A stretch of DNA of 34,428 nt. Source: Candidatus Acidiflorens stordalenmirensis. GTDB taxonomy: Bacteria; Acidobacteriota; Terriglobia; Terriglobales; Acidobacteriaceae. The notes beneath the pieces are model-generated. The model was given only the letters and a program-made list of their open reading frames with translations, was not told the origin of the DNA and searched no databases. The position numbers and the translations under genes are program-made. Below are positions 4,667 through 34,265 of this stretch, piece by piece; position 1 is the stretch's first letter; every line of letters begins with the position of its first letter. The stretch covers positions 1-34,428 of the forward strand of contig PLIC01000175.1 in NCBI GenBank assembly GCA_003139995.1. The letters are read 5' to 3'.

Positions 4667-4764
4667 TGACGCGTGGGAGCAGCTGCGATTGAACTCGGAA
4701 GCGTTGAACGGCTACGATTGAACGAGCTACGGTTAAACCGGAGAATGGCTGAGAGGCATTGCTA

Positions 4765-5442
4765 ATGACGGAACCCATGACGGCCCATCGAATCATGCCC
4801 TTCCTGATGGTCCTGGTGCTGGTGTCCATCGGGGCGTTCGCGCAATCTAATTCCACATCGCGGCCCACGGCGCCCGCCGCCGCAGCCGATAAGCAGGCCG
4901 GCCAGAAGACAGTTGGCGAGAAACCGAGGGAAGGCTCGGGGGCCGTACATTCGGATAGTTCCTACGTGATTGGCGCTAATGATGTCCTGGCAATCAATGT
5001 GTGGAAAGAACCTGACATCTCGCGTTCCGTTCCCGTTCGTTCCGATGGCAAGATTTCTTTGCCGTTAGTCGGGGAGTTGCAGGCGAGTGGTCAGACGCCA
5101 CAGCAACTGGAACAAGAGATCACAAAGCGCCTGCAGAGCTATATCTCCGAGCCTGAAGTCACGGTCATCGTTACCGATAGCAAGAGTCAGAAAGTGAACA
5201 TCTTGGGCATGGTGGCTCGACCTGGCGCCTATCTGTTGACGAGCTCGACCACCGTACTCGATGCCATCGCGATGGCCGGAGGGTTCAAAGACTTCGCGAA
5301 GCAGAAGTCGATCTATGTTCTACGGCAAGCTCCGGACGGAACGCAGAAGCGAGTCGCATTCAACTACAAAGAAGTGATCAAAGGCAAAAATCCGGAGCAA
5401 AACATCCCCCTGCAGGCTGGCGATACGGTGGTGGTCCCGTAG
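4765..5442 (+). CDS. Polysaccharide export protein (Wza-like, Poly_export/SLBB)
   Basis: A 225-residue secreted protein of the outer-membrane polysaccharide exporter family. It begins with a signal peptide (MTAHRIMPFLMVLVLVSIGA, then FA|Q). The Poly_export domain follows from about residue 70 (YVIGANDVLAINVWKEPDIS, then DGKISLPLVGELQASGQT), and then an SLBB domain (VNILGMVARPGAYLL and LDAIAMAGGF). Known members form the periplasmic and outer-membrane channel for capsule or EPS together with Wzz-type proteins. The signal peptide lacks a lipobox cysteine, unlike E. coli Wza. The start at 4765 has GAGAGG at 4751-4756; a TTG six bases upstream is less likely. The next gene begins only two bases after the stop, so the two are surely co-transcribed. 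Confidence 0.92.
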   Translation: MTEPMTAHRIMPFLMVLVLVSIGAFAQSNSTSRPTAPAAAADKQAGQKTVGEKPREGSGAVHSDSSYVIGANDVLAINVWKEPDISRSVPVRSDGKISLPLVGELQASGQTPQQLEQEITKRLQSYISEPEVTVIVTDSKSQKVNILGMVARPGAYLLTSSTTVLDAIAMAGGFKDFAKQKSIYVLRQAPDGTQKRVAFNYKEVIKGKNPEQNIPLQAGDTVVVP

Positions 5443-5444
5443 TT

Positions 5445-6893: not shown

Positions 6894-6906
6894 TGGGAAT
6901 GTAATC

Positions 6907-8505: not shown

Positions 8506-8510
8506 AAATC

Positions 8511-9464: not shown

Positions 9465-9482
9465 GCACAAGGTTTCTCTTAC

Positions 9483-10409
9483 ATGAGCCAGATATTTGAA
9501 GCGTTGCAGCGAGCGGAGGCCGAGCGGTCGGGCGGAAGCCTGCCGAAAAACGCCGACTCGGTCGCGGATCTACTGCAAGGGGTCGAACAGGAAATCGCGC
9601 GCAAACAATCGCTTTCCGAGTTGCCGGCGGCGGCGAAAGCAGAGTCTCCAAAGGCGGGTTCGTTTGCCTCCGCGAAAGTGCTCTTGCCCGCACCGGCGGC
9701 GGATTCCCGGCTGGTGTGTCTGACGGATCAGGGCAGCCTGGCCGCGGAAAAGTTTCGCGTGCTTGGTTTGAAGCTGCGAAACCTGCGCGAACGGCGCAAG
9801 CTCAAACGGATCGCGGTGACCGGTACGGCCCCGGAAGAAGGGAAAAGTCTAGTTGCGGCGAATCTCGCGCTCAATCAGGCGCGCAGCAAGGTTTTGAAGA
9901 CGCTGCTGCTGGACGGAGATCTCCGGCGGCCAACCTTGTCCAGCCGATTCGGGTTCGACCGTTCCTTGCCGGGACTGAGCGAGTGTTTGCGAGGCGAGCG
10001 GCAACTTGCGGAAGTGGTGTACAAAGTCAGTGGCTCCGGTCTCTGGTTCCTTCCCGCTGGGCGCCTGCCCGAGAACCCGCTCGAACTGATGCAGACCGGA
10101 CGCCTCCCGGAAGTGCTCGACCGGCTCGGAGAATTCTTCGACTGGATCATCATTGACACTCCTCCGGTTCTCCCCGTGGCGGACACCACGTTCTGGATGA
10201 AGCTGGCGGACGGAGTTCTCGTCGTGATCCGCGAAGGTGTCACTGAGAAGAAAGCAATAGAGCGGGCTTTGGATTCATTTGATCGCGCAGCTTTGCTGGG
10301 CGTAGTCGTCAACAGTTGTAGCCGCATCGAGCACACGGATTATTATTCGCGTTACGGTCAGGCAACGGTTCGAACCGGCGAAGATCCCCCCTCCGCCGAG
10401 AACGAGTAA
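9483..10409 (+). CDS. CpsD/CapB-type tyrosine kinase
   Basis: A 308-residue bacterial tyrosine kinase of the standalone (cytoplasmic) type. Walker A is GTAPEEGKS (114-122), Walker A' is LLLDGDLRRP (141-150) and Walker B is WIIIDTPPV (221-229). A short C-terminal tyrosine cluster (Tyr287, Tyr288, Tyr291) is the likely autophosphorylation site. The N-terminal 80 residues begin MSQIFEALQRAEAER, a start seen in PEP-CTERM-associated tyrosine autokinases (TIGR03018-like). Such kinases act with a Wzz-type membrane activator to control polymer assembly; here the activator would be the Wzz-like protein. No low-molecular-weight or PHP-type tyrosine phosphatase gene is seen in the window. Confidence 0.92.
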   Translation: MSQIFEALQRAEAERSGGSLPKNADSVADLLQGVEQEIARKQSLSELPAAAKAESPKAGSFASAKVLLPAPAADSRLVCLTDQGSLAAEKFRVLGLKLRNLRERRKLKRIAVTGTAPEEGKSLVAANLALNQARSKVLKTLLLDGDLRRPTLSSRFGFDRSLPGLSECLRGERQLAEVVYKVSGSGLWFLPAGRLPENPLELMQTGRLPEVLDRLGEFFDWIIIDTPPVLPVADTTFWMKLADGVLVVIREGVTEKKAIERALDSFDRAALLGVVVNSCSRIEHTDYYSRYGQATVRTGEDPPSAENE

Positions 10410-11760: not shown

Positions 11761-12762
11761 ATGCTTAGGTTTGGCGTTATCGGTTACGGCTATTGGGGGC
11801 CGAATATCGTGCGCAATCTGCGCACCCTGGAAGGCTGCCAGGTCGTCGGAATCTGCGATCAGACTCCCGCCGCCCGCAAGCGCATACAGGCGGCGAATCC
11901 CGGGATCCCGGTCCATAGCGACTTCCACGAACTGATAAAGTCGCCCGACGTGGATGTCATCGCGGTGATCACCCCGGTGTGGACGCACTATGAATTGGCC
12001 AAGGCCGCGCTGGAGAACGGCAAACATGTGTTCGTGGAGAAGCCGTTCACCAGCAATGCGGCGCAAGCCGAAGAACTGGTCAACCTCGCGGAGCAGAAAA
12101 AGCTCCAGATCATGGTGGACCACACGTTCCTATTTACCGGCGCAGTCCGCAAAATACAAAAACTGCTGGCGGACGGGACGCTCGGCAACCTCTACTACTA
12201 CGATTCGACCCGCGTGAACCTGGGGCTGTTTCAGCATGATTGCAACGTGATTTGGGACCTCGCGCCGCACGACCTCTCGATCATGAACCACCTGCTGCAC
12301 AAAGACGCGGAGGCCGTCTCGGCCACCGGGCAAGCGCACCTCAACGGGCACGAGGATATCGCGTTCATTACCGCGTATTATCCCGACAAGATGATTGCGC
12401 ACGTCAACGTGAACTGGATTTCGCCAGTCAAAATTCGAACCACGCTGATCGGCGGCGAAAAGAAAATGCTGGTCTGGAACGATCTTGAGGCCGACGAGAA
12501 GCTGAAGATTTACGACAAGGGTGTGGACGTGAAGAGCCAGGAAGGTGTGTACCACCTGCTGATAAGTTACCGTTCAGGCGACATGTGGGCGCCGCAGATC
12601 GAACAGGTGGAGGCGCTTAAGTTGGAGCTTGAATACTTCGTGGAATGCATCAAGAAGAGCAAGGCGCCATTCAACGACGGCCGCGCGGGATTGAAGGTTG
12701 TTCGCATGCTGGAAGCCGCGACCAAATCGCTCGCCAAGCGCGGCGAGCTCGTCTACATTTAG
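11761..12762 (+). CDS. Gfo/Idh/MocA-family nucleotide-sugar dehydrogenase (WbpB/WlbA-like)
   Basis: A 333-residue NAD(P)-dependent oxidoreductase. The Rossmann motif is GYGYWG (8-13). The family signature is VEKP (92-95), and WDLAPHDL (165-172) carries the likely catalytic His170. The following two genes encode a hexapeptide acetyltransferase and a PLP aminotransferase. In Pseudomonas and Bordetella the same trio (WbpB-WbpD-WbpE, WlbABC) converts UDP-GlcNAc uronic acid to the 2,3-diacetamido sugar, this enzyme making the 3-keto form. I infer the same chemistry from gene order. The substrate could be another nucleotide sugar, since no WbpA-type UDP-GlcNAc 6-dehydrogenase gene lies in the window. 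Confidence 0.88.
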   Translation: MLRFGVIGYGYWGPNIVRNLRTLEGCQVVGICDQTPAARKRIQAANPGIPVHSDFHELIKSPDVDVIAVITPVWTHYELAKAALENGKHVFVEKPFTSNAAQAEELVNLAEQKKLQIMVDHTFLFTGAVRKIQKLLADGTLGNLYYYDSTRVNLGLFQHDCNVIWDLAPHDLSIMNHLLHKDAEAVSATGQAHLNGHEDIAFITAYYPDKMIAHVNVNWISPVKIRTTLIGGEKKMLVWNDLEADEKLKIYDKGVDVKSQEGVYHLLISYRSGDMWAPQIEQVEALKLELEYFVECIKKSKAPFNDGRAGLKVVRMLEAATKSLAKRGELVYI

Positions 12763-12798
12763 GACAAACGTTTAAGAAAAAGTCCAGGACAATACCAG

Positions 12799-12829
12799 GG
12801 ACGCCGGCGCTGCTGGCTCGGAGGCGTCC
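12799..12829 (+). other. Stem-loop between dehydrogenase and acetyltransferase genes
   Basis: Perfect 7-bp arms GGACGCC (12799-12805) and GGCGTCC (12823-12829) with a 17-base loop, in the 187-bp gap after the dehydrogenase gene. There is no T-run, so it is not a clear intrinsic terminator. It could stabilise an mRNA end or be chance in GC-rich DNA. Confidence 0.25.
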
Positions 12830-12949
12830 GAACCGTCCACTCGCCCCACGGCCGCGTTTCGCATTCCGCGTAGAGAATCTCTCGCCTGGTAAATCCAACC
12901 TCAACGTAAATCCATACCTGGCGAAAGGTTGAAGAGGAGTCTGCCGAAA

Positions 12950-13441
12950 ATGGATCAATTTCTCAGCATCGCCCCGGATGTAAAGCTCGGGGAAGGAGTC
13001 AAGCTGTCGAAGTTCATCAATCTCTACGGTTGCGAGATTGGCGATGAAACGAAAATCGGTGCGTTCGTCGAAATTCAGAAAAACGCCTCGGTTGGCAAGC
13101 GCTGCAAGATCTCGAGCCACACCTTCATTTGCGAAGGGGTGACGATTGAAGACAACGTGTTCATCGGTCACGGCGTGATGTTCATCAACGACTTGTATCC
13201 GCGCGCGACGACTGGCACGGGTGGCTTGCAGACGGAAGCCGACTGGCATGTGGAACGGACGGTAGTGAAAAAGGGAGCCTCGATTGGCTCCGGCGCGACC
13301 ATCCTCGCCAATACCTGCATTGGAGAGAACGCCATTGTGGGGGCGGGAGCCGTGGTCACGAAAGATGTTCCGGCCAACACCATTGTAGCCGGTAATCCGG
13401 CAAGAATTCTTCGTCAAATAGAAACGGGGGTCGCTCAGTGA
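12950..13441 (+). CDS. Left-handed beta-helix acetyltransferase (WbpD/WlbB-like)
   Basis: A 163-residue hexapeptide-repeat acyltransferase. Repeats of the [LIV]-G-x4 type are visible throughout (VKLGEGVKLSKFINLYGCEI, IGDETKIGAF, IGSGATILANTCIGENAIVG). It ends in the usual VTKDVPANTIVAGNPARILR. The nearest named relatives are WbpD/WlbB, which N-acetylate the 3-amino group of a UDP-sugar using acetyl-CoA. This matches its place between the dehydrogenase and the aminotransferase. The ATG at 12950 has GAGGAG at 12934-12939, ten bases away. A TTG 21 bases upstream has poorer support. Its stop overlaps the next start by four bases (GTGA), so the two genes are translationally coupled. Confidence 0.9.
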   Translation: MDQFLSIAPDVKLGEGVKLSKFINLYGCEIGDETKIGAFVEIQKNASVGKRCKISSHTFICEGVTIEDNVFIGHGVMFINDLYPRATTGTGGLQTEADWHVERTVVKKGASIGSGATILANTCIGENAIVGAGAVVTKDVPANTIVAGNPARILRQIETGVAQ

Positions 13442-14661
13442 ATCATCCGCAAAATATTCCTTTTCTCGATCTGGTCACGCCGCATGTCGAGCTCGAACCG
13501 GAGCTGACTGCGGTTTTTCAGCAGGTAATCCGCACCGCGGGCTTCATCGGCGGGCCCATGGTGGAGAATTTTGAAAAAAAGTTTGCCGCGTTCTGCCACA
13601 CCGAGCGCGCGGTCGCAGTCAACAGCGGCACCGACGCGCTCCGTTTCGCGCTGATGGCGGCCGGCGTAAAGCCCGGCGACGTAGTGGTAACGGTTCCGAA
13701 CACGTTTATTGCCACCACCGAAGCCATTTCGCAGGCAGGAGCGCTGCCGGAGTTCGTCGACATCGACGAGCGCACCTACAACATGGATTCCGAAAAGCTG
13801 CGGGAGTATCTCGAACGGAAATGCACGAGAAATACTTCGGGCAAATTGATCAGCCAACGCAGCGGGCGCCCGGTGACCACGATCGTGCCCGTCCACCTCT
13901 ATGGGCAGATGGCCGACATGGACGCCATCCTCGAACTGGCGGACCGATTCGGTCTGTTCGTGGTGGAAGACGCTTGCCAGGCCCACGGCGCGCAATATTT
14001 TTCGCGCAAACAGAATCGCTGGTTCACGGCGGGTTCCATGGGCCGCGCCGCCGCTTTCAGTTTCTATCCCGGCAAGAACTTAGGAGCTTGCGGCGAGGCC
14101 GGCGCGGTCACGACGAACGACGAAGCTCTTGCCGCCAAGATCCGCATGATTCGCGACCACGGCCAGGCAAAGAAGTACTACCACGATGTGGAGGGTTACA
14201 ACGGGCGTTTGGACGCAATCCAAGCGGGGATTTTGCAGGTGAAACTTGGATATCTGGCTGGTTGGAATCATCTGCGGCAGCAGGCCGCAGCACGCTATAC
14301 CGATCTGCTGGCAAACCAGAAAGGCGTGACGCTGCCCTACCAGCCCACTACGGCCAAGCCGGTCTACCACCTATACGTTGTTCGGGTGGACGATCGCGAG
14401 GGGCTGCGCCAGCATCTTGCCGATGCGGGAATCGGCACTGGAATTCACTATCCAATCCCGCTGCACTTACAGAAAGCTTATGCGCACCTTGGCTTCCAAG
14501 CGGGCAGTTTTCCGGTCACCGAGCGTGTGTCCGGGACCATCCTTTCTCTGCCCATGTTTCCACAGCTTGTCAGCGAGCAGCAAAAACGAATAGCGGAAGC
14601 CATCGTCCCGTTCCTCTCACTCCAAGCGGCGCCGGCGCCCGAGCCGGTAAGCATAGGCTGA
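13438..14661 (+). CDS. DegT/DnrJ/EryC1/StrS sugar aminotransferase (WbpE/WlbC-like)
   Basis: A 407-residue PLP-dependent sugar aminotransferase. The fold-type I features are NSGTDAL (62-68), VVEDACQAHGA (175-185, Asp178 binding the PLP nitrogen) and SFYPGKNLGACGEAGA (208-223, Lys213 as the PLP lysine). In the WbpB-D-E scheme it places an amino group on the 3-keto sugar from glutamate before acetylation. Its start is a GTG overlapping the acetyltransferase stop (GTGA). The length is slightly above the usual 360-390 because of a short insertion around 130-145 (CTRNTSGKLISQRSGRPV). A 270-bp gap without a convincing gene follows. Confidence 0.93.
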   Translation: MNHPQNIPFLDLVTPHVELEPELTAVFQQVIRTAGFIGGPMVENFEKKFAAFCHTERAVAVNSGTDALRFALMAAGVKPGDVVVTVPNTFIATTEAISQAGALPEFVDIDERTYNMDSEKLREYLERKCTRNTSGKLISQRSGRPVTTIVPVHLYGQMADMDAILELADRFGLFVVEDACQAHGAQYFSRKQNRWFTAGSMGRAAAFSFYPGKNLGACGEAGAVTTNDEALAAKIRMIRDHGQAKKYYHDVEGYNGRLDAIQAGILQVKLGYLAGWNHLRQQAAARYTDLLANQKGVTLPYQPTTAKPVYHLYVVRVDDREGLRQHLADAGIGTGIHYPIPLHLQKAYAHLGFQAGSFPVTERVSGTILSLPMFPQLVSEQQKRIAEAIVPFLSLQAAPAPEPVSIG

Positions 14662-14928
14662 AGAGCAGTCGCAGTTCAACATCGGCATTACAGAATCCCA
14701 AGGGTTCAATCAGGATGAAGATCATCCCTGTCTTTCCTGAACGATGGGACGGAAAAACCGGCGCACGAATATAGTGAGAATTCTGCTCCAGCAGTGGCAG
14801 TTGCGCAGCGGTATGCGCTGCAGTGAGTCGGTATCCGCCGCTCATGCATGTCCCTATGTTCTTCGCTGCACGCACTCAGCAGCGTTCAAGCTCTCCTGAG
14901 TTCCTTCCCCAATGACGAAAGATGGTCT

Positions 14929-16056
14929 ATGACGCCTAACGGAACTAATAACAACCATAACGGAACCATGCACCCGAAGAAAGTCTGGATCGACCTTGAA
15001 AACTCTCCCCACGTGCCGTTCTTCAAGCCGATTATCGAGGAACTCGAGCGGCGCGGCTACTCCGTCCTGGTGACTGCCAGGGACTGTTTCCAGGTGTGCG
15101 AACTTGCGGACTTGCTCCACGTTCGCTACAAACGCGTTGGCCGGCACTATGGCAAGCACATGGTCGCCAAACTGGGTGGACTCGGTGTGCGCACCTTACA
15201 GATGATGCCGACCATCCTGCGGGAAAAGCCCGATTTGGGCGTCTCGCACGGATCGCGAGCACTTTTCCTGCTCTCTTCCTTGCTGCGCATTCCCACCATC
15301 ACGATGTTCGACTATGAACACGTCAAGTGGGCGGGGTTCGCCCGCTCGTCCTGGATCATGGTGCCCGACATCATTGCCGACCAACCCGCGTCGGCGATGA
15401 GAATCAGGAAGGAGCGTGTGCTCCGGTATCCCGGCATCAAGGAGGATGTCTATGCTTCCTCGTTCCGCCCGGATCCCTCAATCCGCGAACGGCTCCATCT
15501 TCTTCCTGACGACATCGTCGTGACGGTTCGTCCGCCGGCCACGGAGGCCCATTATCATAATCCCGAGAGCGATATACTGCTTGACTCGGTGCTCGACTTT
15601 CTAGGTCAGCGGCCAAATACCAAGGCCATCTTGCTGCCACGGACGGCCAAGCAGGAAGGCGAACTGCGTGAAAAATGGCCAGACCTGTTTTCCAGCGGGA
15701 AGGTTGTCGTGCCCGACCACGTGGTGGACGGCATGGACTTGATCTGGTTCTCCGATCTCGTCATTAGCGGCGGAGGCACGATGAACCGCGAGGCCGCCGC
15801 ACTTGGTGTGCCGGTTTACAGCATCTTTCGCGGAAAGCTTGGGGCCGTGGACAAATATCTCGCGGAGGCAGGACGGCTTACTCTTTTGCTGACCCCCGAA
15901 GATGTGCGCAGCAGGATTGCGCTGGTCCATCGCCACATGGATGTCAAACCCAAGGCAGACGGACGGCCTGCCTTGCAGAGTATCGTCGAGAATATCGTCG
16001 GCATTATGGAGTCGGGATGTCCTGTACACAATCGGAAACAGCGCAAAACCAGCTGA
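14929..16056 (+). CDS. DUF354 family protein, copy 1
   Basis: A 375-residue protein of the DUF354 family, GT-B-like and related in fold to UDP-GlcNAc 2-epimerase and MurG-type proteins. The conserved core begins KKVWIDLENSPHVPFFKPII and includes VSHGSRALFL, PPATEAHYHNPESD and DLVISGGGTMNREAAALGVP. The last stretch resembles the nucleotide-sugar binding loop of GT-B enzymes. The function is not established; a glycosyltransferase or epimerase role is inferred. It is a close paralogue of the gene at 25305, roughly two thirds identical by eye. The start is uncertain. ATG 14929 is preceded by GAAAGA; ATG 14848 and ATG 14968 are alternatives. The 3' end overlaps the next gene by 40 bases. Confidence 0.85.
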   Translation: MTPNGTNNNHNGTMHPKKVWIDLENSPHVPFFKPIIEELERRGYSVLVTARDCFQVCELADLLHVRYKRVGRHYGKHMVAKLGGLGVRTLQMMPTILREKPDLGVSHGSRALFLLSSLLRIPTITMFDYEHVKWAGFARSSWIMVPDIIADQPASAMRIRKERVLRYPGIKEDVYASSFRPDPSIRERLHLLPDDIVVTVRPPATEAHYHNPESDILLDSVLDFLGQRPNTKAILLPRTAKQEGELREKWPDLFSSGKVVVPDHVVDGMDLIWFSDLVISGGGTMNREAAALGVPVYSIFRGKLGAVDKYLAEAGRLTLLLTPEDVRSRIALVHRHMDVKPKADGRPALQSIVENIVGIMESGCPVHNRKQRKTS

Positions 16057-25287: not shown

Positions 25288-25304
25288 CTTCAAAAGGGGA
25301 TGAG

Positions 25305-26465
25305 ATGTCAAGTATTACCAATCGAGGCGTTCGCGAGCCTTCCTCCGAAACTTCCTCAGGCACAACGCCGGTGAAAGTCGATAGTGCCAAGGCTGCTAGC
25401 CCGCCGCCGCAGCAGAGGACCCGTGGGAAAAAGATCTGGATCGACCTGGAGAATTCCCCCCATGTACCGTTCTTCAAACCGATCATTGAGGAGCTTGAAG
25501 AACGCGGACATTCGGTGTTACTGACGGCCAGAGATTGCTTCCAGGTATGTGATCTTGCCGATCTGCTTGGCCTGCAATACAAGCGAATCGGGCGCCATTA
25601 TGGCAAGCACATGCTGGCAAAGGTCGCGGGACTCGGGGTTCGGGTACTCCAGCTAAGTCCCACTGTTCTGAAGCATAAGCCGGATCTCGCCGTTTCGCAC
25701 GGTTCCAGGTCGATGTTCGTGCTCGCTTCTTTGCTGCGGATTCCCACGATCACGATCTGCGATTATGAACACGCGAGATGGACGAAGTTTGTAAATCCGT
25801 CTTGGGTAATGGCGCCAGATGTTATTCCTGACGAGGTGGTGCGCGGCCTGGGCTTCGACAAGACTCGTATTCTCAGATATCCAGGTATCAAAGAAGATGT
25901 TTATGCGCCCCTTTTCAAGCCCGATCCGTCGATCAAGAGCCGAATCGGCTTGAACACAGACGATCTAATCGTCACCTTGAGGCCCCCCGCAACGGAAGCG
26001 CACTACCATAACCCAGCGAGTGATCGGCTCCTGAATTGCGCACTCGAATTCTTGGGAAGCCAGTCCAATGTGAAAGTCGTGATTCTCCCCCGTACCAGCC
26101 AGCAAGAATCTGAACTGCGGAGAGCGTGGCCACAGAGATTTGCAGAGAAGCGATTTATCGTGCCACAACAGATCGTCGATGGACTAGATCTTATCTGGTA
26201 CTCGGACCTGGTTATCAGCGGCGGCGGTACCATGAATCGCGAGGCCGCGGCATTGGGGGTGCCCGTCTACAGCATCTTTCGTGGGAAGATCGGCGCGGTC
26301 GACCGTCATTTGGCCGATACTGGCCGGCTGGTTCTCCTCGAGAGCGCGGAAGATGTTCACCGCAAACTCCATCTTGTGCGCCGCCGGCCCGAAGCCACAC
26401 CGAACGTGGGCGGCCACTCGGCGCTCCAGGCCGTCGTGGACAACATTGTGGGGGTCCTGCAGTGA
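25305..26465 (+). CDS. DUF354 family protein, copy 2
   Basis: A 386-residue paralogue of the protein at 14929-16056. A Ser/Thr/Pro-rich N-terminal stretch of about 44 residues precedes the shared core (KKIWIDLENSPHVPFFKPII). The other blocks are also kept: VSHGSRSMFVL, RPPATEAHYHNPASD, DLVISGGGTMNREAAALGVP and VYSIFRGKIGAVD. The likely fold is GT-B-like, but the activity is not established. The start ATG 25305 has a good AAAAGGGGA just upstream. The core of the two copies is nearly collinear, with no large gaps, so both could be active. Two retained paralogues suggest that each acts on a different sugar or step (inference). A family 2 glycosyltransferase gene follows 58 bases downstream. Confidence 0.88.
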   Translation: MSSITNRGVREPSSETSSGTTPVKVDSAKAASPPPQQRTRGKKIWIDLENSPHVPFFKPIIEELEERGHSVLLTARDCFQVCDLADLLGLQYKRIGRHYGKHMLAKVAGLGVRVLQLSPTVLKHKPDLAVSHGSRSMFVLASLLRIPTITICDYEHARWTKFVNPSWVMAPDVIPDEVVRGLGFDKTRILRYPGIKEDVYAPLFKPDPSIKSRIGLNTDDLIVTLRPPATEAHYHNPASDRLLNCALEFLGSQSNVKVVILPRTSQQESELRRAWPQRFAEKRFIVPQQIVDGLDLIWYSDLVISGGGTMNREAAALGVPVYSIFRGKIGAVDRHLADTGRLVLLESAEDVHRKLHLVRRRPEATPNVGGHSALQAVVDNIVGVLQ

Positions 26466-26523
26466 CCTGCTAAACGGTCCGCTCGCTCCCCGAGATGTGG
26501 ACTTGATTAGTACTCGTGCTTCC

Positions 26524-27489
26524 ATGGACGTTTCAATCATCTTTGTGAACTGGAATTCGGTGGACTACCTGCGGGAGTGTATCCCCAGCATACGCAAATA
26601 TACCCAGGGGCTCTCCTATGAAATCATCGTCGTCGACAATGCTTCACCGGCTGGAGATGCGGACGTTATTGGACGCGAGTTCTCAGACATCGTGCTGATC
26701 AAGAGTGAGGAAAACCTCGGGTTTGCGGGGGCAAACAATCTTGGGTTCAAGCACTCTACTGGTAGATTCATTCTTTTCCTGAACCCCGACACGAAATTGA
26801 TCTCGCCCATCATCAACATCATGCTGAAACACTCACAATCCTTGCCGGACGCCGGGGTCGTGGGGTGCAAACTGCTGAATCGCGATCTTTCGGTTCAGAC
26901 CAGCTCGATCATGCAGTTTCCAACGATTTTCAATGAGCTGTTTCAATTCGAATACTTGCGGCTGCGATGGCCCGGATTTTGGGGGATCGGACCGCTATTT
27001 TCGAGCGGTACGGAACCTGCCAAGGCCGAGGTGATATCTGGGGCCTGTATGTTGATCAGGAGGGAAGCGTTTGAGAAGGTGGGCATGTTCAGTGAAGAGT
27101 ACTTCATGTACGCCGAAGATATGGATTTGTGCTACAAGATCGCGAAGGCAGGATGGACGAACTACTATGTGGGTGAGGCAGTGGCGGTGCATTACGCGGG
27201 CACAAGCAGTCCACGCGTGTGGCAACTCGCTGCGAAGTCGAAATCTATGCTGAAATTTTGCGAGAAGTTTTACGGGCGCTTCTACACGTGGCTCTTTCGG
27301 ATCGCGTTGGCCGGCAATGCGGTCGCCCGTCTGACCGTCATCTACGGGTTGTCGCTTTTCGGAAGGAAGGAATCTCTACAGTCCTCGATCGTGAAATGGA
27401 CCACGATGCTTAAGACGTTAATCAATCCGTCCACTTGCGACGAAATGGTCCCCTCCCGCAAGGCGGTCGCGTCCCAAGTCCGGCCTTGA
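26524..27489 (+). CDS. Family 2 glycosyltransferase (WbbL-like)
   Basis: A 321-residue GT2 enzyme. The N-terminal GT-A motifs are SIIFVNWNS (4-12), EIIVVDNAS (33-41) and the metal-binding FLNPDT (85-90, in place of DxD). YAEDMDLCYKIAKAGW (196-211) carries the catalytic-base ED pair. The nearest named families are WbbL/RfbF rhamnosyltransferases, but the sugar transferred is unknown. It would add one sugar of the repeat unit from a nucleotide-sugar donor on the cytoplasmic side. The start is the ATG 58 bases after the DUF354 stop; no clear ribosome binding site is visible. A truncated relative lies at 25129. Confidence 0.92.
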   Translation: MDVSIIFVNWNSVDYLRECIPSIRKYTQGLSYEIIVVDNASPAGDADVIGREFSDIVLIKSEENLGFAGANNLGFKHSTGRFILFLNPDTKLISPIINIMLKHSQSLPDAGVVGCKLLNRDLSVQTSSIMQFPTIFNELFQFEYLRLRWPGFWGIGPLFSSGTEPAKAEVISGACMLIRREAFEKVGMFSEEYFMYAEDMDLCYKIAKAGWTNYYVGEAVAVHYAGTSSPRVWQLAAKSKSMLKFCEKFYGRFYTWLFRIALAGNAVARLTVIYGLSLFGRKESLQSSIVKWTTMLKTLINPSTCDEMVPSRKAVASQVRP

Positions 27490-27536
27490 CGCCGAGATCT
27501 GGGACTATCGGGTACCAAAGAAAGAGGTAACAGGAA

Positions 27537-28409
27537 ATGCCGACGACGCCAAAACGTATCATCTTCCTCACGGGAAGCTTGCTTGTCGAAGCGGGCGATC
27601 TGCTGTGGAACAATGCCCGGAGATTGCTGGGCCTGCGGCCACATGGAAGTTGTGTGGTTCTGACCTATCATTCCGTGACCTCGGAGGAGCGTCCGCTGTT
27701 TGCCCGTCAGATGGACACTTTGCTCCGTTATGCGAAGCCGGTGCGCGCTGACATAGAAGCTCTTCCGCCCAAGGGAGGGCGATACGCGGCGGTCACATTC
27801 GATGACGGGATGCAGAACATCGTGGACAATGCCTTGCCCGAACTGGAGAAGAGAAGCATCCCGACAACGCTTTTTATTATTACGGACGTATTGGGAAAGC
27901 TCCCTGACTGGGAATATTTCGGACCAAAAGACACCGGACAAGAGCGTGTTATGAGCGAGGAGCAACTGCGAAAGCTGCCCTCCGCTATCGTGGAGATCGC
28001 GTCCCACACCATGACCCACCCGGTGCTGCCGCAGATCGACCGGGAGAAACTCGCCCAGGAAGTCGAAGGGTCTCGCGCCAAACTGGCCAAAATGCTGGGC
28101 CGAGAAATCAAGCTCCTCAGCTTCCCCTACGGAGCATTTAACGATGACGTCGTCGACGCATGCCGAAAGGCCGGCTACGAGCGCGTCTTCTCGGCGTTGC
28201 CCTATTTCGCGTTCTCCGAGCCCCAGGAGTTCCTGACCGGGCGCATGGGGGTCTACCCTACCGATTGGCCCATCGAGTTTCGTCTCAAAGTGCTGGGAGC
28301 GTACCGCTGGCTCCCATTCATGTTCGATCTAAAACGCAAGGTGCTGTCTCGATTGCGGGGACAGTCAGCCAGAGAGCTTGGACTAAAACCTGGAGAGAAG
28401 ACTGCATGA
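27537..28409 (+). CDS. Polysaccharide deacetylase (NodB-like)
   Basis: A 290-residue NodB-family carbohydrate esterase 4 protein. It contains the metal-binding TFDDG (87-91, catalytic Asp89 and metal Asp90) and SHTMTHP (156-162, His157 and His161). LSFPYGAFND is the usual later motif. YHS (44-46) marks the beginning of the domain. It probably removes an N-acetyl group from a sugar in the repeat unit. There is no clear signal peptide, so a cytoplasmic or membrane-face reaction is more likely than a periplasmic one. AGAGG precedes the ATG. Its stop overlaps the start of the acyl carrier protein gene by four bases (ATGA), which ties it to an acylation step. Confidence 0.92.
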   Translation: MPTTPKRIIFLTGSLLVEAGDLLWNNARRLLGLRPHGSCVVLTYHSVTSEERPLFARQMDTLLRYAKPVRADIEALPPKGGRYAAVTFDDGMQNIVDNALPELEKRSIPTTLFIITDVLGKLPDWEYFGPKDTGQERVMSEEQLRKLPSAIVEIASHTMTHPVLPQIDREKLAQEVEGSRAKLAKMLGREIKLLSFPYGAFNDDVVDACRKAGYERVFSALPYFAFSEPQEFLTGRMGVYPTDWPIEFRLKVLGAYRWLPFMFDLKRKVLSRLRGQSARELGLKPGEKTA

Positions 28410-28639
28410 CTGCTACGGAGAACCAAGTTGCAGAGGTCCTTTTGGAGATTTTTGCTACCAAGGGCCTTGCTCAGCCCCGGTTGCTGGCAGACACGGCGCT
28501 GGATCAATTAGGCCTCGAATCGCTGGACTTTGCCCAAGCGGTGATCCGGCTGGAGGAACTCACCGGTAAGGACCCGTTTGCCACGGGGGACGACTACCAG
28601 ATCAAAACGTTGTCCGACCTTGCTGTACTGTACGCCTGA
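28406..28639 (+). CDS. Acyl carrier protein
   Basis: A 77-residue acyl carrier protein. The phosphopantetheine site is LGLESLDF, with Ser39 as the attachment residue and Glu instead of the usual Asp in the DSL motif. The helical pattern on both sides (AQAVIRLEELTG, IKTLSDLAVLY) is normal. It starts at an ATG overlapping the deacetylase stop, with GGAGAGAAG as the ribosome binding site. The ligase gene follows after 15 bases. This ACP would carry an acyl group activated by the ligase and changed by the reductase downstream. It is too embedded in the cassette to be the housekeeping fatty-acid ACP. Confidence 0.93.
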   Translation: MTATENQVAEVLLEIFATKGLAQPRLLADTALDQLGLESLDFAQAVIRLEELTGKDPFATGDDYQIKTLSDLAVLYA

Positions 28640-28654
28640 AGAACGGCTTCTGAG

Positions 28655-30004
28655 ATGCTGAGTTCCATAATTCTGGAAGAAACAATCCCTCTGGCGCAAG
28701 AGGCGGTGGTCACCCGCGGCCGGCCGGCCACCTGGGAACAGTTGCGGGCCCAAGCGCATGATATGACCGCCGCTTTTGCGGCTCTCAGGTCGCGTCGTGT
28801 GGGAGTGTCGTTCCGCGCCGCGGGCGAGAGTTATGCGGCCCTGGCAGCCTTGGACAAGCTCGAGTCCGACACATTCTTGTTCGATGCACATCTCCCGCTG
28901 GAGGAAATGCTGGCGCTTGCGAGAAAGCTGAAGCTGGGTGCGGTCTTGGCCGCGCCGCCCGGCGGGCAGTCTTCAGGGTTCAGCGTTCACGAATTGTGTG
29001 GCGAGGAAAAGTGGAGTGGCAGCGGCACGGTTACCATCTTGACTTCGGGCAGCACGGGAGAGCCGAAAGCGGCCCGGCACACGTGGGAAAGCCTCTCGCG
29101 TCCGGTTCGAAAAGGGCCTGATGGCGCCGCGCCGCGGTGGCTGCTCACGTACCGGCCCAATCTGTACGCCGGACTGCAGGTCATGCTGCAGTGCTTCGCC
29201 GACCGGGGCACCTTGGCCATTCCTGACGCGGACATGGATCCGCGCGCTATGGCCCAGTTTATGTGCGATGCCGGAGTGCAGTTTGTGTCGGCGACGCCTT
29301 CCTTCTGGCGGCGCTTGCTGATCCTTGTCGACTCGGACCTGCTGAAGAGAGCACCCCTCGTGCAAATCACATTAGGTGGGGAAGTGGTCGATCAGCCTTT
29401 GCTGGACAGGTTGAAACAGTATTTTCCCCAGGTTCGTTTGGCGCACATTTATGCCACCACGGAGCTTGGCCGGTGTTTCTCGGTCCATGATGGGATGGCA
29501 GGGTTCCCCGCCAGTTATCTCGGGAAGGTACTTCCGGACAGATCCGAACTTAGAATCCAGGACGGCGAGCTTCTGGTAAGGTCGGCGAATTCCATGAGGA
29601 TGTATGACCCGCATTCTGGGCAGCAGACCCTGAGCACGGACTGGTTTGCGACGGGCGACCTGGTGGAACTGAAGGGGAATCGGGTGTATTTTGTGGGCCG
29701 CAGGACAGACATGATCAATGTGGCCGGAAGCAAAGTGTACCCGATGGAAGTGGAACGTGTGATCCGAGTTGTTCCTGGAGTCTCTGACGTGCGGGTTTTT
29801 GGCAAGGTTTCATCGGTGGCTGGGGAACTGGTCGCGTGTGAGATTGTCCCGGCCCCGGGTCAAGATCCGGAGGCGCTAAAGATGCGGGTCAATCAGGTTT
29901 GCCGGTCCGCGCTTTCGAGCCCGCAGCAGCCCCGATTGATTAAACTGGTCGATCAAATCGGTCTGTCTGCGGCAGGCAAGACCCTCCGAAGCAGGACTTC
30001 ATGA
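28655..30004 (+). CDS. AMP-forming acyl-ACP/acyl-CoA ligase
   Basis: A 449-residue adenylating enzyme. The P-loop is TSGSTGEPK (130-138). The ATP motifs YATTE (266-270) and TGD (333-335) and the hinge VYFVGRRTDMINVAGSK (344-360) are in order. The C-terminal catalytic lysine is Lys442 (AAGKTLR). It is about 60-100 residues shorter than usual acyl-CoA synthetases, mainly at the N-terminus. With an ACP 15 bases upstream, the likely job is to load a carboxylic acid on that carrier. Ligase and ACP pairs occur in exosortase-A-associated EPS loci (TIGR03098 kind), but the acid is not known. The stop overlaps the SDR start (ATGA). Confidence 0.9.
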   Translation: MLSSIILEETIPLAQEAVVTRGRPATWEQLRAQAHDMTAAFAALRSRRVGVSFRAAGESYAALAALDKLESDTFLFDAHLPLEEMLALARKLKLGAVLAAPPGGQSSGFSVHELCGEEKWSGSGTVTILTSGSTGEPKAARHTWESLSRPVRKGPDGAAPRWLLTYRPNLYAGLQVMLQCFADRGTLAIPDADMDPRAMAQFMCDAGVQFVSATPSFWRRLLILVDSDLLKRAPLVQITLGGEVVDQPLLDRLKQYFPQVRLAHIYATTELGRCFSVHDGMAGFPASYLGKVLPDRSELRIQDGELLVRSANSMRMYDPHSGQQTLSTDWFATGDLVELKGNRVYFVGRRTDMINVAGSKVYPMEVERVIRVVPGVSDVRVFGKVSSVAGELVACEIVPAPGQDPEALKMRVNQVCRSALSSPQQPRLIKLVDQIGLSAAGKTLRSRTS

Positions 30005-30744
30005 GCAACCGATCGACTGGACAACCCAGACACGTTGTTATCAGTGGGGGCAGCCGCGGGCTGGGAAAGGCAATTGTGCAGGGGTTGCTCGATGCCGGTT
30101 ATCAGGTCAGCACTTTCAGCCGCAATTCATCCGAATTCATCGAAAGGTTCGCAGGAAGAGAAGGCTTCTATTTCGCTCGGGCAGACCTTGCCGATGGCCC
30201 TTCAGTTTCATCGTTTCTAAAATCGGCCGAGGCATTGTTCGGCCGCCCTTATGCGTTGATCAATTGTGCGGCGATTGCGGTGGACGGTCTCCTAGCCACT
30301 ACTTCGGAAGATTCCATCAGGAAACTACTACTGGTGAATGCCGAAGGCACATTGCGCTTCACTCGGCTGGTCGTGCGGAGAATGCTGTCGGCGAGAAGTG
30401 GCGGGGTCATTCTAAACATCTCCTCAATCAGTTCGCTGCGTGGCTTCACGGGAATGTCGGCTTATGCTTTTACCAAAGGTGGGCTGGACGCCTTCACCCG
30501 CGCGCTGGCACGCGAATTAGGGGAGCAGAAAATACGTGTCAATTCCATCGCGCCCGGTTACTACGACACGGACATGAGCCACAATATGTCCAATGCGCAT
30601 AAACAACAGATCCTGCGCCGTACACCGTTGGGGCGTTTGGGATCGCCCGAGGACGTGGTGGGGGCTGTCCTGTTCTTCCTGTCCGACCAGGCGAGTTTTA
30701 TCACCGGGCAGTGTTTGGTGATCGATGGCGGGAGCACGGTTTGA
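30001..30744 (+). CDS. FabG-like short-chain dehydrogenase/reductase
   Basis: A 247-residue classical SDR. The cofactor motif is GGSRGLG (16-22). NCAA (88-91) stands where NNAG is usual. Ser142, Tyr155 and Lys159 form the catalytic set (YAFTK), and INSIAPG appears here as VNSIAPGYYDT. It resembles 3-oxoacyl-ACP reductases and would reduce a keto group on the carrier-bound acyl chain or on a sugar. The choice of an acyl-ACP substrate is inferred from its coupling to the ACP and ligase genes. The start ATG overlaps the ligase stop by four bases. Its substrate may also be a nucleotide sugar. Confidence 0.9.
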   Translation: MSNRSTGQPRHVVISGGSRGLGKAIVQGLLDAGYQVSTFSRNSSEFIERFAGREGFYFARADLADGPSVSSFLKSAEALFGRPYALINCAAIAVDGLLATTSEDSIRKLLLVNAEGTLRFTRLVVRRMLSARSGGVILNISSISSLRGFTGMSAYAFTKGGLDAFTRALARELGEQKIRVNSIAPGYYDTDMSHNMSNAHKQQILRRTPLGRLGSPEDVVGAVLFFLSDQASFITGQCLVIDGGSTV

Positions 30745-30860
30745 GTCTTTGGCAGTTCAAGAATCGACTAGGTTCACTATTGTCTACTTGCTTGCTTTGG
30801 TATCGCGAAGTCTGTGACGCAAGCGTTGAACCGGAAACTTAGGGAGGGTTTCGACATCAA

Positions 30861-31979
30861 ATGGCTATACGGACATTCGTGGAAGCCGATGTTCCCCAGG
30901 TAGCGGACTTGGTATGGAAGGTACTTCATGAAAGGGAAGGGGCCTCGCCGTCAAACCTGAGGTCCTATTTCAGGGAGCTGTTCCTCGAAAACCCTTGGCA
31001 TGAGGAAGGCATCGTTTCCCGTGTAGCCGAAGACAACCAAGGGAAGATCGTTGCGTTCTTCGGAACAATCGCGCGCCGGATGACCTTCCAGGGGAAGACC
31101 ATTCGATTCGCGTTTGGCAGCAATTTTGTGGTCGATCCGGAAAGCCGCGCGACCATGGCGGCCATACAACTGCTCCGGGCGTTCATGAAAGGCCCGCAGG
31201 ACGTTTCCATCACTGATTCAGCGAACGAGAACAGCCGGCAGATGCTGCGGAGCCTTGGGTTTACGGTTGTGCCCGTATACAGCCTGCTTTGGGCCCGTCC
31301 ACTGCGGCCGTCTTTCTATGCTCTCCATGGTGTGGCCCGCCTGAAGAAAAGCAAACTAGCGAGAACGGTGAGCGCCATTGCGAAGCCGTTCAGCGCTCTG
31401 GCTGATGCTGTGATCGTACGCATGCCACTCAGCCCGTTTCGGCAGTTTGAACACGATACCATCGGAGAAGAACTTGACCTCGACACCCATCTGCAGGCGC
31501 TGGCTAAACTGCCCAAGAACTGGCTCCTCCCGGAATACGACCGTGCTTCCCTGAAGTGGGTAGTCGATTTCGTAGTTAGAAATAAATCCCTGGGTGAGGA
31601 AGTCCGAAAGGTGGTCGTGCGGGACAAGGATCGCAAGGTGCTGGGTTGGTACATGTACTACGTGGACCGGGGTGAGGTAGGAGAAGTGCTCCAGGTTGGA
31701 GCGGAAACGGCCTCGATGGCCAAGGTGCTCGACCACCTCTTCCACGATGCTTGGAAGCGGGGGATGATCGGGCTCCATGGCCGGCTCGAGCCACAGTTCA
31801 TGGAAGACTTGACACTGAAGTCCTGTTTCTTCCTGCGCAATGGAAGTTGGACACTGGTGCATTCCAGCAAACCGGAACTGCTGGCATTGGTGCAAAGTGG
31901 CACTGCATTCTTCTCGCGCATCGATGGCGAGTGGGGGCTGCGGCCGCCGCGCGTGTTTGCGGCAGGGGTTTCCGCATGA
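30861..31979 (+). CDS. GNAT-family acyltransferase-like protein
   Basis: A 372-residue protein with an N-terminal GNAT domain (MAIRTFVEADVPQVADLVWK, then GKIVAFFGTIARRMTFQGKT, and DSANENSRQMLRSLGF at about 117-132). A second, GNAT-like half follows (GWYMYYVDRGEVGEVLQVGA). Two-lobed proteins of this type occur in EPS clusters, where they may acylate an amino sugar. It follows the ACP-ligase-SDR cassette after a 116-bp gap, so it is the best candidate to move the ACP-bound acyl group (inference). AGGGAGGG lies 12 bases before the ATG, slightly far. Confidence 0.75.
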   Translation: MAIRTFVEADVPQVADLVWKVLHEREGASPSNLRSYFRELFLENPWHEEGIVSRVAEDNQGKIVAFFGTIARRMTFQGKTIRFAFGSNFVVDPESRATMAAIQLLRAFMKGPQDVSITDSANENSRQMLRSLGFTVVPVYSLLWARPLRPSFYALHGVARLKKSKLARTVSAIAKPFSALADAVIVRMPLSPFRQFEHDTIGEELDLDTHLQALAKLPKNWLLPEYDRASLKWVVDFVVRNKSLGEEVRKVVVRDKDRKVLGWYMYYVDRGEVGEVLQVGAETASMAKVLDHLFHDAWKRGMIGLHGRLEPQFMEDLTLKSCFFLRNGSWTLVHSSKPELLALVQSGTAFFSRIDGEWGLRPPRVFAAGVSA

Positions 31980-32187
31980 GGCGCTGAATTAAGATGGTAT
32001 GCGGGCAGCGGTAAAGTGACAGCTCACGCACCGCGGGCTTTGCCGCCAAGGCTGCGTGGTTCCCCTTGGTGAGGCGGATCAACTCGGGGAAGCGGCGGGC
32101 ATCGTCGAAAACTGTAAGAAGCGACGTGCCGCAAACTCCGGTCCTACCGCTTGAGGACCAGGGGCCAACGATGACTTCGAATTTCTT

Positions 32188-33177
32188 ATGAGTGCTCCAG
32201 TTGGACGCAAGTACGTCCTGATCACTGCCGCTCACAATGAAGAGGCCTACGTCGAGCGCACGTTGCAGTCCGTCGTCGCTCAGGTCCAGAAGCCTCTGAA
32301 GTGGGTGGTCGTCAATGACCGGTCCACAGACCGAACCGGGCCGATTGTTGAAGCCTATGCCAAGCAATATGAATTCATCGAATTGGTTGAAGCGCGCGGA
32401 GAGCAGGGGAGAGGATTCTCCTCCAAAGTGCATGCCCTGAGCCTGGGATATCAGCGGCTGCAAGGTCTGGACTACGATTTTCTTGGCATTCTGGACGGAG
32501 ACATTTCCTTCGATCCGCAATATTACAGCGAGCTTTTGGCGAAGTTTTCGCTGGACCCGAAATTGGGGTTATGTGGCGGCTTTATCTACGAAGAAGAGCG
32601 GGGCGAATTCCAGAGTCGTAAGCCGAACACGCCGCTTTCCGTGGCCGGGGCCACCCAGGTGTTCCGGCGCGAATGTTATGAAGCGATCGGCGGCCTGCGG
32701 CCCATCCCATACGGCGGAGAAGATTGGTGCGCCGAGGTGGGCGTGCGTATGCGGGGCTGGAAAGTGCAAGCATTCCCGGAACTGAAGGCTTTTCATCACC
32801 GAGCCACAGGAACTGGCGGCAGCCTACTGCGCTATTTGTACCGACAAGGGAAGATGGATTACGCTTTGGGCAGCCTGCCATCGTTTGAAATCGTGAAGTG
32901 CGCGCGGCGAGTCATGGAAAACCCTTTTGTTCTCAATGCGGCGGCACGCTGGACTGGGTTCTGTGTTTCTTCCCTGCGCCGCGCACCTCGACTAGTATCA
33001 AAGGAGTTCATCGATTACTTGCGGGAAGAGCAGCGCCAGCGGTTGCGCGCCATGATCCGAGCGGGATCAAAAGCGCCGGAATTTAATTCTTCTGTAGATA
33101 AGCCCGTGCAGAAAACGCTGGGAAGCGCGCCATCCCATGATTGCGTTGCAGGCGACACGGGGAAGCCCTCCCCCTAG
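32188..33177 (+). CDS. Family 2 glycosyltransferase
   Basis: A 329-residue GT2 enzyme of the GT-A fold. Motifs are VLITAAHNEEAYVERTLQSV (10-29), VVVNDRSTDRT (40-50), the DxD motif ILDGDISFD (101-109) and GGEDW (176-180). The last 60 residues are hydrophilic and basic (SKEFIDYLREEQRQRLRAMI). It differs clearly from the glycosyltransferase at 26524 and likely adds another sugar of the repeat unit. A 208-bp gap precedes it, in which I see no supported gene. The start ATG has no good ribosome binding site. Confidence 0.92.
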   Translation: MSAPVGRKYVLITAAHNEEAYVERTLQSVVAQVQKPLKWVVVNDRSTDRTGPIVEAYAKQYEFIELVEARGEQGRGFSSKVHALSLGYQRLQGLDYDFLGILDGDISFDPQYYSELLAKFSLDPKLGLCGGFIYEEERGEFQSRKPNTPLSVAGATQVFRRECYEAIGGLRPIPYGGEDWCAEVGVRMRGWKVQAFPELKAFHHRATGTGGSLLRYLYRQGKMDYALGSLPSFEIVKCARRVMENPFVLNAAARWTGFCVSSLRRAPRLVSKEFIDYLREEQRQRLRAMIRAGSKAPEFNSSVDKPVQKTLGSAPSHDCVAGDTGKPSP

Positions 33178-33215: not shown

Positions 33216-34265
33216 ATGGCCGTCTATCAGATTGACCCATTGCGCGACCCACGCTGGGCGCAATTTGTGCAAATCCATCCTCGAGCGTCGGTCTTTCACA
33301 CACCCGGTTGGCTGGAAACACTGCGCCGGACTTACGGCTATGAGTGCTTCGGTCTCACCACCACTCCGCCTGGCAATGACCTGACCAACGGAATGGTTTT
33401 CTGTCGTGTGACGAGTTGGTTGACGGGTTCCCGTTGGGTGTCGGTGCCTTTTTCCGACCACTGCGATCCTCTCATCGATCGAACCGAGGACCTTCACTCA
33501 ATACTCGATTGGGTGGTTCAAGAATCAACGCGCGCGCGAACCAGGTATGTCGAAATTAAGCCGTTGGACAGTGGCCTGAGGCTCGAGGGCAGTACCCGTT
33601 TTCGACGGAGCGAGGAATTCCGGATCCATCTGCTTGACTTGGGACCGTCTGTTGAAGAACTGTATCGGTCGTTCGACAAGAGTTCGATCCAAAAAAGGAT
33701 TCAAAAAGCAGAGAAAGAGAGGCTGGTTTACGAGGAGGGATCTTCGCCAGCGCTGCTGAAGAAGTTCTACCACCTGATGGTCATGACGCGCCGGCGGCAC
33801 CGGATTCCGCCCCAACCAGTTGCTTGGTACAGCAATCTGTTAGCTATCTTGGGCGATAAGGCCAGGATTCGTGTGGTTTCCAAGGACGGCGTGCCAGCGG
33901 CCAGTATAATGACCGTAAGCCATGGTAGATCAACGATTTATAAGTATGGCTGCTCCGATGAGCGATACAACAATTTGGCCGGAAACGTACTTCTGTTCTG
34001 GCATGCGGTCCGGGATGCAAAGGAGTCTGGGGCGCAGGTCCTCGATATGGGGCGCTCGGACTTGGACAATCCTGGGTTGATCCACTTCAAGTCCGACTGG
34101 GGCGCAGCGAACTCCACACTCACGTATTGGCGGTTTCCTGAATTGTCACGTTCGGAAAAGAGCGGCCGGCTCAAGGGACGGAAAATCGGCGGTTACTTAT
34201 TGTCTCGGCTGCCGGATCGCTGCTTGATTGCTATGGGGAAGGTGTTATACAAACACGCTGGCTAG
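33216..34265 (+). CDS. FemAB-like (PEP-CTERM/EPS-associated) acyltransferase
   Basis: A 349-residue protein of the FemAB-related GNAT group. Visible blocks are ASVFHTPGWLETLRRTYGYE (24-43), then SFDKSSIQKRIQKAEKERLV (about 152-171), YKYGCSDERYNNLAGNVLLF and DMGRSDLDNPGLIHFKSDWG. The last blocks are the usual FemAB-like acceptor region. Such proteins (TIGR03019 type) are known from exosortase-associated EPS loci; an aminoacyl or acyl transfer to a sugar or lipid is assumed but unproven. The start ATG lies 38 bases after the glycosyltransferase stop. Confidence 0.85.
   Translation: MAVYQIDPLRDPRWAQFVQIHPRASVFHTPGWLETLRRTYGYECFGLTTTPPGNDLTNGMVFCRVTSWLTGSRWVSVPFSDHCDPLIDRTEDLHSILDWVVQESTRARTRYVEIKPLDSGLRLEGSTRFRRSEEFRIHLLDLGPSVEELYRSFDKSSIQKRIQKAEKERLVYEEGSSPALLKKFYHLMVMTRRRHRIPPQPVAWYSNLLAILGDKARIRVVSKDGVPAASIMTVSHGRSTIYKYGCSDERYNNLAGNVLLFWHAVRDAKESGAQVLDMGRSDLDNPGLIHFKSDWGAANSTLTYWRFPELSRSEKSGRLKGRKIGGYLLSRLPDRCLIAMGKVLYKHAG

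Follow-up and report, generated by a model that had tools for sequence, protein, structure and literature searches.

The formation of a short hydroxyacyl group on an acyl carrier protein (ACP) is described for the antibiotic mupirocin. According to the consulted part of one source, MacpD, MupQ and MupS make 3-hydroxypropionyl-ACP from malonyl-coenzyme A (malonyl-CoA), the genes follow each other in the order macpD, mupQ, mupS and then a ketosynthase gene (MmpF), and thiomarinol employs a 4-hydroxybutanoyl unit (PMC10098928, in part). In Nod factor synthesis, NodB deacetylates and NodA transfers an acyl group from ACP to the terminal N-acetylglucosamine (PMC5080398, in part). Here, we consider a stretch of 34,428 nucleotides from the acidobacterium Candidatus Acidiflorens stordalenmirensis (contig PLIC01000175.1; hereafter the window). 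An exopolysaccharide (EPS) locus in this window carries, side by side, genes for a polysaccharide deacetylase, an ACP, an adenosine monophosphate (AMP)-forming ligase, a short-chain dehydrogenase/reductase (SDR) and a GNAT-fold protein. The new point of this analysis is that the ACP-ligase-SDR triad resembles, by sequence affinity and gene order, the macpD-mupQ-mupS cassette of mupirocin. The whole block is reasonably likely to serve amino-sugar re-acylation, in which deacetylation of an N-acetylhexosamine, formation of a short hydroxyacyl-ACP and N-acylation by the GNAT protein would be combined.

The deacetylase (27537-28409), ACP (28406-28639), ligase (28655-30004) and FabG-like SDR (30001-30744) genes lie head to tail on the + strand with gaps of -4, +15 and -4 bases, and the GNAT-fold open reading frame (ORF; 30861-31979, +) follows after +116 bases. 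A preliminary description of this DNA had reported four-base ATGA overlaps at 28406 and 30001, a 15-base gap and a GNAT-like ORF next; the measured gaps and the Pfam matches bear this out, and all five ORFs are present where it had placed them. The NodB-homology deacetylase matches PF01522 (86.9 bits, 1.3e-24), its nearest solved structure being the polysaccharide deacetylase 4wcj (1e-10). The 77-residue ACP matches PF00550 (22.7 bits, cut-off 20.8), the ligase PF00501 and PF13193, and the SDR PF13561/PF00106. Reading by eye reveals TFDDG and SHTMTHP in the deacetylase, LGLESLD in the ACP, TSGSTGEPK, YATTE, TGD, GRRTD and AAGKTLR in the ligase, and SGGSRGLG, VNAEG, ISSISS and YAFTK in the SDR, all of which we take to be active-site motifs. 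Pfam gives no ketosynthase match among the 30 window ORFs scanned, in agreement with the earlier view that the cassette contains none.

The five genes hold together, on the basis of one further homologous complete copy, the sole other one found (locus L083). It lies in a genome from another family of the same class (G476), which was located via its GNAT protein. There, all five genes occur in the window order with identical spacing (-4, +15, -4), the SDR-GNAT gap being 38 bases as against 116. Identity to the window proteins is 61% for the deacetylase, 73% for the ACP, 71% for the ligase, 75% for the SDR and 68% for the GNAT protein. The surroundings are shared as well. A relative of gene 23646 (61% identity; a multi-membrane protein with no family match, polymerase-like by eye) and a relative of the glycosyltransferase gene at 26524 (61%) precede the block, and an epimerase-like gene, a glycosyltransferase gene and a FemAB-type gene (48%) follow it; a DUF354 gene stands between 23646 and 26524 in the window and is absent from that place in L083. 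This common order and spacing argues that the arrangement is more than chance.

Wider searches recovered partial sets. With the ligase as query, 20 of 396 phylum genomes (own included) pass E 1e-22, G476 alone passes 1e-40 among the 89 genomes of its family, and no full-length close ligase was seen among 60 relatives, which speaks against conservation within the genus. The nearest ligase by identity, in a genome of the same genus (G013, L027:359-1410), is a broken piece with 45% identity over query positions 329-446 and was not counted; by eye, it adjoins hemB-like and ubiD-like genes. In a Nitrospinaceae locus (L025), an ACP, SDR, ligase, GNAT-like protein and deacetylase had looked like a second full block. 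This locus was treated as a parallel set because its SDR has FabG proteins first, its ligase falls in another clade and its GNAT match is partial (profile positions 43-100 only, 1.7e-4). Another locus (L069, genome G264) was counted as a triad only, since its upstream protein, taken by eye for a GNAT, matches neither Pfam nor the GNAT profile. A Helarchaeota locus (L026) encodes a 672-residue ligase, with no ACP or SDR match.

In sequence, the likeness of the triad to the mupirocin cassette comes from the SDR and the ACP. Among solved structures, the window SDR matches MupS best (4yxf, 192 bits; next 158 bits), and scoring the two directly gives 190 bits. MupS scores 140-221 bits against the 11 triad SDRs and 61-98 bits against 12 other SDRs. 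It is also the first solved match for the SDRs of L069 and of an Azospirillum triad (L116). For the SDR of L025, FabG proteins lead the best 60 of 75 matches and MupS is not among these 60. For the window ACP, MacpD is the nearest solved structure (6tg5, E 4.8e-5; next 0.34), and it comes first for the L083 ACP too; the MacpD chain in the PDB has 138 residues as against 77 here. Moreover, a DPF signature after the serine helix is present in all 11 triad ACPs and in MacpD, and absent from the 11 non-triad ACPs compared. At E 0.001, a PF00550 search of the whole genome fails to recover the window ACP; such carriers may thus be under-annotated, and the ACP density derived from this search is a rough baseline only.

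Together with the gene order macpD-mupQ-mupS, these affinities suggest that the triad likely produces a hydroxyacyl-ACP, made from a dicarboxylic acyl-CoA and not from a keto acid. The preliminary description had already proposed a hydroxyacyl-ACP, an idea strengthened by MupS and MacpD being the top solved relatives. It had also supposed that a small keto acid is loaded, which is probably not the case, as the characterised relative uses malonyl-CoA in the part of its description consulted (PMC10098928). By analogy, the specific acyl group may be 3-hydroxypropionyl, an assignment that we make tentatively and at somewhat less than even chances.

Besides the window and L083, the triad is found in nine further loci, five in the phylum and four on plasmids, with the order ACP, ligase, SDR kept in all nine (in L072, ACP and ligase stand about 1.5 kb apart). 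Of the 19 ligase loci other than the window's own, five contain an SDR that reaches at least 150 bits against the window SDR, with an ACP within 1.5 kb in four and farther upstream in the fifth. In four others, an ACP is accompanied by an SDR of the other group (78-125 bits). Two further loci show an SDR without an ACP, and in the remaining eight the 1.5-kb flanks contain neither. This other ACP, SDR and ligase set is found in L025, L073, L074, L076 and L079, and its SDRs cluster together, away from MupS. In a tree of 28 ligases, those of the 11 triads fall into a single clade (support 100/99) that excludes the 17 others. The plasmid triads, opened as four regions from 30 listed of 1466 matching records, belong to the Alphaproteobacteria Azospirillum (two regions), Haematobacter and Qingshengfaniella. 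Both Azospirillum triads adjoin pseI, flagellin and ketoacyl-ACP synthase III (KAS III) genes. There, the triad and the KAS III gene lie between pseudaminic acid synthase and flagellin genes (L116:9483-12814, L117:9507-12821), which suggests an acylated flagellin sugar. In Haematobacter and Qingshengfaniella, the triad adjoins an acyltransferase gene, of hexapeptide type in the latter (L119). In L071 and L072, a second ligase gene stands downstream of the triad, together with genes that by eye resemble those of a pyridoxal phosphate (PLP) decarboxylase, a Cys/Met PLP enzyme and a homoserine acyltransferase, in differing order.

The GNAT-fold ORF was approached through its predicted structure and a profile search, both served by an alignment of 20 sequences (A4) in which those of L025 and L069 are remote or doubtful. 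Its AlphaFold2 model (predicted local distance difference test 87.9, predicted template modelling score 0.87) was compared with known structures by Foldseek. The best 50 of 887 matches are N-myristoyltransferases and Eis-like acetyltransferases that cover the whole chain, with template modelling scores by query of 0.46-0.57. A double-GNAT fold is thus predicted, with two GNAT-like halves per chain as in N-myristoyltransferase and Eis. In profile searches, N-myristoyltransferase matches at 1e-4 and aminoglycoside 2'-N-acetyltransferase weakly (8e-3). N-myristoyltransferase, Eis and AAC(2') acylate amines, and the modelled fold and the profile point to an N-acyltransferase.

Homologues of this protein were found in 12 of 299 class genomes and 9 of 396 phylum genomes (own included in both), and the searches yielded 23 loci besides its own. 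In 13 of these 23, the GNAT homologue has an ACP at a distance of no more than about 1.5 kb, using an ACP model built partly from the ACPs of GNAT loci, as against 0 of 29 FemAB control loci. Of 151 genomes searched with the control protein, 52 have a match; the control loci counted are high-scoring non-own ones, two of them in GNAT-bearing genomes. With an ACP model trained on ligase loci only, the counts are 10 of 23 and 0 of 29, for which the Fisher p of 7e-5 is optimistic because two families (f7 and f27) account for 15 of the 23 loci. When larger stretches are considered, 16 of the 23 have an ACP at a distance of up to 2.2 kb. The GNAT-like protein had been put forward as the transferase at the outset, and this company with ACPs supports that role.

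The partners of these GNAT homologues vary. In L086, genes for a deacetylase, a luciferase-like monooxygenase and an adenylation (A)-domain-like ligase adjoin those of the ACP and the GNAT protein. By eye, L091 has a monooxygenase, ligase, ACP and GNAT, with no deacetylase match, and L094 encodes a protein with a sub-cut-off HAD match. EPS-type loci containing a deacetylase, luciferase-like monooxygenase, A-domain-like ligase, ACP and GNAT are seen in L086, L087 and L089, as well as in L088 and L091 (the latter with the exception just given). Carbamoyltransferase or asparagine-synthase-like genes are added in these loci, whose gene content was established partly by Pfam for L086 and L087 and otherwise by eye. 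Such loci possibly specify another acyl decoration. In one genome, N- and C-terminal parts of a GNAT homologue stand at two contig ends (of L095 and L096) that were not joined.

As to where deacetylation would occur, the glycosyltransferase gene (26524-27489, +; GT2 family, PF00535, 70.9 bits) lies immediately upstream of the deacetylase gene, and in L084 the two domains are fused in a single 665-residue ORF (7348-9345; PF00535 and PF01522), with genes for a GNAT homologue and an ACP coming next. Hydropathy detects no membrane span in the window deacetylase, the highest 19-residue Kyte-Doolittle mean being 1.03, and the usual threshold for a membrane span is about 1.6. Proximity or fusion to the glycosyltransferase and the lack of a span are both compatible with deacetylation in the cytoplasm, the compartment of the ACPs, but neither is proof.

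From gene presence, motifs, synteny, family affinities, predicted fold and neighbourhood counts, we infer the catalytic activities, substrate, acceptor, order of steps and cellular place as follows. On the cytoplasmic side, the deacetylase would strip the N-acetyl group from a sugar that the adjacent glycosyltransferase has added. The ligase and SDR would load a short dicarboxylic acyl-CoA, with malonyl-CoA as the best guess, onto the MacpD-like carrier, and reduction would give a terminal-hydroxy acyl-ACP, most likely 3-hydroxypropionyl-ACP. The double-GNAT protein would then take the acyl group off the ACP and attach it to the free amine. The exported polymer would in this way bear N-(hydroxyacyl) amino sugars.

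Several observations weigh against this scheme, in addition to the relatedness of the loci behind the Fisher test. The main reason to doubt the last step, transfer by the GNAT protein, is that the triad and the GNAT gene are usually apart, an arrangement that also fits interchangeable modules. In the stretches fetched, the GNAT and deacetylase profiles match none of the nine other triads, so that the conservation of the five genes as a block, which the preliminary description proposed to look for, is seen in L083 and fails in these nine. Conversely, 22 of the 23 GNAT homologue loci lack a MupS-type triad, L083 being the sole exception, and in the two genomes that carry both (G244 and G389), triad and GNAT homologue lie on separate contigs or at a great distance from each other. 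There is no ACP within 2.2 kb in 7 of the 23 GNAT loci (L085, L090, L093, L095, L096, L114 and L115), three of which are interrupted by contig ends (L090, L095 and L096). The fold match is rough (root-mean-square deviation 4.3-8.3 for the same 50 structures), the N-myristoyltransferase profile match is limited to positions 4-77 and the sole Pfam match of the ORF, PF13527, scores 23.2 bits, under the cut-off of 25. Further possible acyl or aminoacyl transferases are encoded at 19493 and 33216. As regards the mupirocin likeness, the SDR tree places MupS beside the window and L083 proteins with weak support (81/67), the L069 ACP has MacpD second (3.4e-4, as against 3.1e-4 for a chloroplast ACP) and the ligase is likened to MupQ by gene position, not by sequence.

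Four other explanations have to be weighed against amino-sugar re-acylation. The same hydroxyacyl-ACP cassette could act on a nucleotide amino sugar supplied by the MocA and DegT genes (11761-14661), with the deacetylase acting elsewhere on the polymer. The presence of MocA, DegT and NeuD-like genes in the locus is compatible with this idea, as are the triads of L118 and L119, which adjoin an acyltransferase gene and show no deacetylase in the annotation or by profile. We nevertheless regard it as unlikely: a hexapeptide transferase gene already adjoins DegT in the locus, the deacetylase and ACP genes of L083 overlap in exactly the way seen in the window, and in L084 the deacetylase immediately precedes the GNAT homologue. 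Similarly unlikely, at about one chance in five in our estimation, is the loading of a keto, 3-hydroxy or fatty acid by the ligase (for instance acetoacetate, giving 3-hydroxybutyryl-ACP), the SDR then being an ordinary 3-oxoacyl-ACP reductase. The SDR does match FabG models (the top ones sub-cut-off) and FabG structures with up to 147 bits, and in the second ACP, SDR and ligase set, the one SDR tested (L025) has FabG as its first match. However, MupS stands 34 bits above the next structure for the window SDR, the window ACP is nearest to MacpD, and the window ligase and SDR group with the other triads, not with the second set.

Alternatively, the ligase and ACP might activate an amino acid or another unit, as in DltA/DltC or nonribosomal peptide synthetase systems, for transfer by the GNAT or FemAB protein while the SDR acts on the sugar. 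That GNAT homologues also adjoin A-domain-like ligases next to a luciferase-like monooxygenase (L086, and L091 by eye), and that the weak PDB matches include a D-alanyl carrier protein ligase, would agree with such an activation. The window ligase, however, matches the A-domain-like ligases of GNAT loci weakly or not at all and the SDR stays with the ligase across triads, which makes this explanation quite improbable. Finally, the trio might produce a small diffusible metabolite or lipid and reside in the EPS locus incidentally. Three triad stretches (L068, L070 and L071) are indeed without a match to the window glycosyltransferases. Nevertheless, two families place the trio between the same neighbours, the glycosyltransferase gene 26524 upstream and the FemAB gene downstream, and the trio occurs in glycan loci of Alphaproteobacteria, so that we give this last explanation very little weight.

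Amino-sugar re-acylation would share parts of its logic with several described systems while differing from each. With mupirocin, the window triad has in common an ACP, an adenylating ligase and an SDR in equal order (PMC10098928, in part). It differs in that no ketosynthase gene follows it (a KAS III gene does in the two Azospirillum relatives) and in that deacetylase and GNAT genes flank it within an EPS locus. The likeness to Nod factor N-acylation is one of logic, deacetylation and then acylation of the free amine from an ACP. The window deacetylase was rejected as a NodB (TIGR04243, 35.5 bits, cut-off 240) and Pfam gives no NodA-type match for the GNAT ORF; the block may therefore work like the Nod system without being a member of it. 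It also differs by the lack of a ketosynthase in the window, by a predicted short hydroxyacyl group in place of a fatty acid and by a polymer in place of an oligosaccharide. In the Caulobacter holdfast, a putative deacetylase (HfsH) and a putative acetyltransferase (HfsK) likewise act on an exported glycan; the consulted part of that source mentions no dedicated ACP, ligase or reductase and places hfsK outside the hfs locus (PMC8449245).

XrtA-type EPS loci with an acyl-CoA ligase of family TIGR03098 resemble the window by an XrtA chain-length protein and an AMP-forming ligase. In contrast, the window ligase was rejected from TIGR03098 (63 bits, far under the cut-off of 592), and exosortase matches in the genome lie on other contigs, C278 (above cut-off) and C131 (below), with none on the window contig (C154). 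In butirosin synthesis, the ligase, ACP and acyltransferase BtrJ, BtrI and BtrH serve to move an acyl group from ACP onto the amine of an aminoglycoside, thus onto an amino sugar, the differences from the window being another acyltransferase and an aminoacyl unit. The preliminary description knew of no EPS system with this set, and no EPS description was found in the open-licence PubMed Central literature either, which is weak evidence of absence; a search of the same literature for hydroxybutyryl and hydroxypropionyl glycan genes returned no paper dealing with these genes. The individual parts all belong to known kinds, and their combination appears to be a new variation.

The remainder of the window is in keeping with an EPS locus. 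XrtA-type export, chain-length and ATPase genes occupy 4759-10409 (+); the chain-length protein exceeds its cut-off (TIGR03007, 286.2 bits, cut-off 278.85), and for the export protein, ATPase and kinase the matches to XrtA models (TIGR03015, TIGR03027, TIGR03018) are sub-cut-off. The MocA oxidoreductase, hexapeptide transferase and DegT aminotransferase genes (11761-14661, +; Pfam matches, all NCBIfam models sub-cut-off) suggest amino-sugar supply, and a NeuD-like gene accompanies MocA and DegT. The XrtA-associated FemAB-type protein used as control transferase (33216-34265, +) scores 113.6 bits with TIGR03019, missing the cut-off of 260.35. A NusG-like protein and then a sigma-54 activator ATPase (2785-4666) head the locus, and two DUF354 proteins (14848-16056 and 25299-26465) are close paralogues (E about 1e-164). 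Scans of 26400-32300 for sigma-70 promoters and terminators gave nothing exceeding shuffled sequences.

A broader proposal, to which we give somewhat less than even odds, is that the GNAT homologues form a hitherto undescribed family of acyl-ACP-dependent N-acyltransferases for EPS amino sugars, fed by interchangeable loading cassettes in the style of natural-product pathways. In the window, the cassette would be of the mupirocin type and supply a 3-hydroxypropionyl group. In relatives, its place would be taken by an A-domain-like ligase together with a luciferase-like monooxygenase and either carbamoyltransferase or asparagine-synthase-like enzymes, or else by a HAD-like enzyme. If amino-sugar re-acylation by the five-gene block is correct, an antibiotic starter-unit cassette would be linked to the decoration of a surface polysaccharide, a specific acyl group would be predicted for an uncharacterised EPS and an assignment would be available for a GNAT family barely visible to Pfam. 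Moreover, the logic of NodB and NodA, deacetylation followed by ACP-dependent re-acylation, would reach past nodulation signals to bacterial matrix polymers. If the cassettes are in addition exchangeable, antibiotic-style acyl chemistry would represent a general, swappable layer of slime-polymer diversity.

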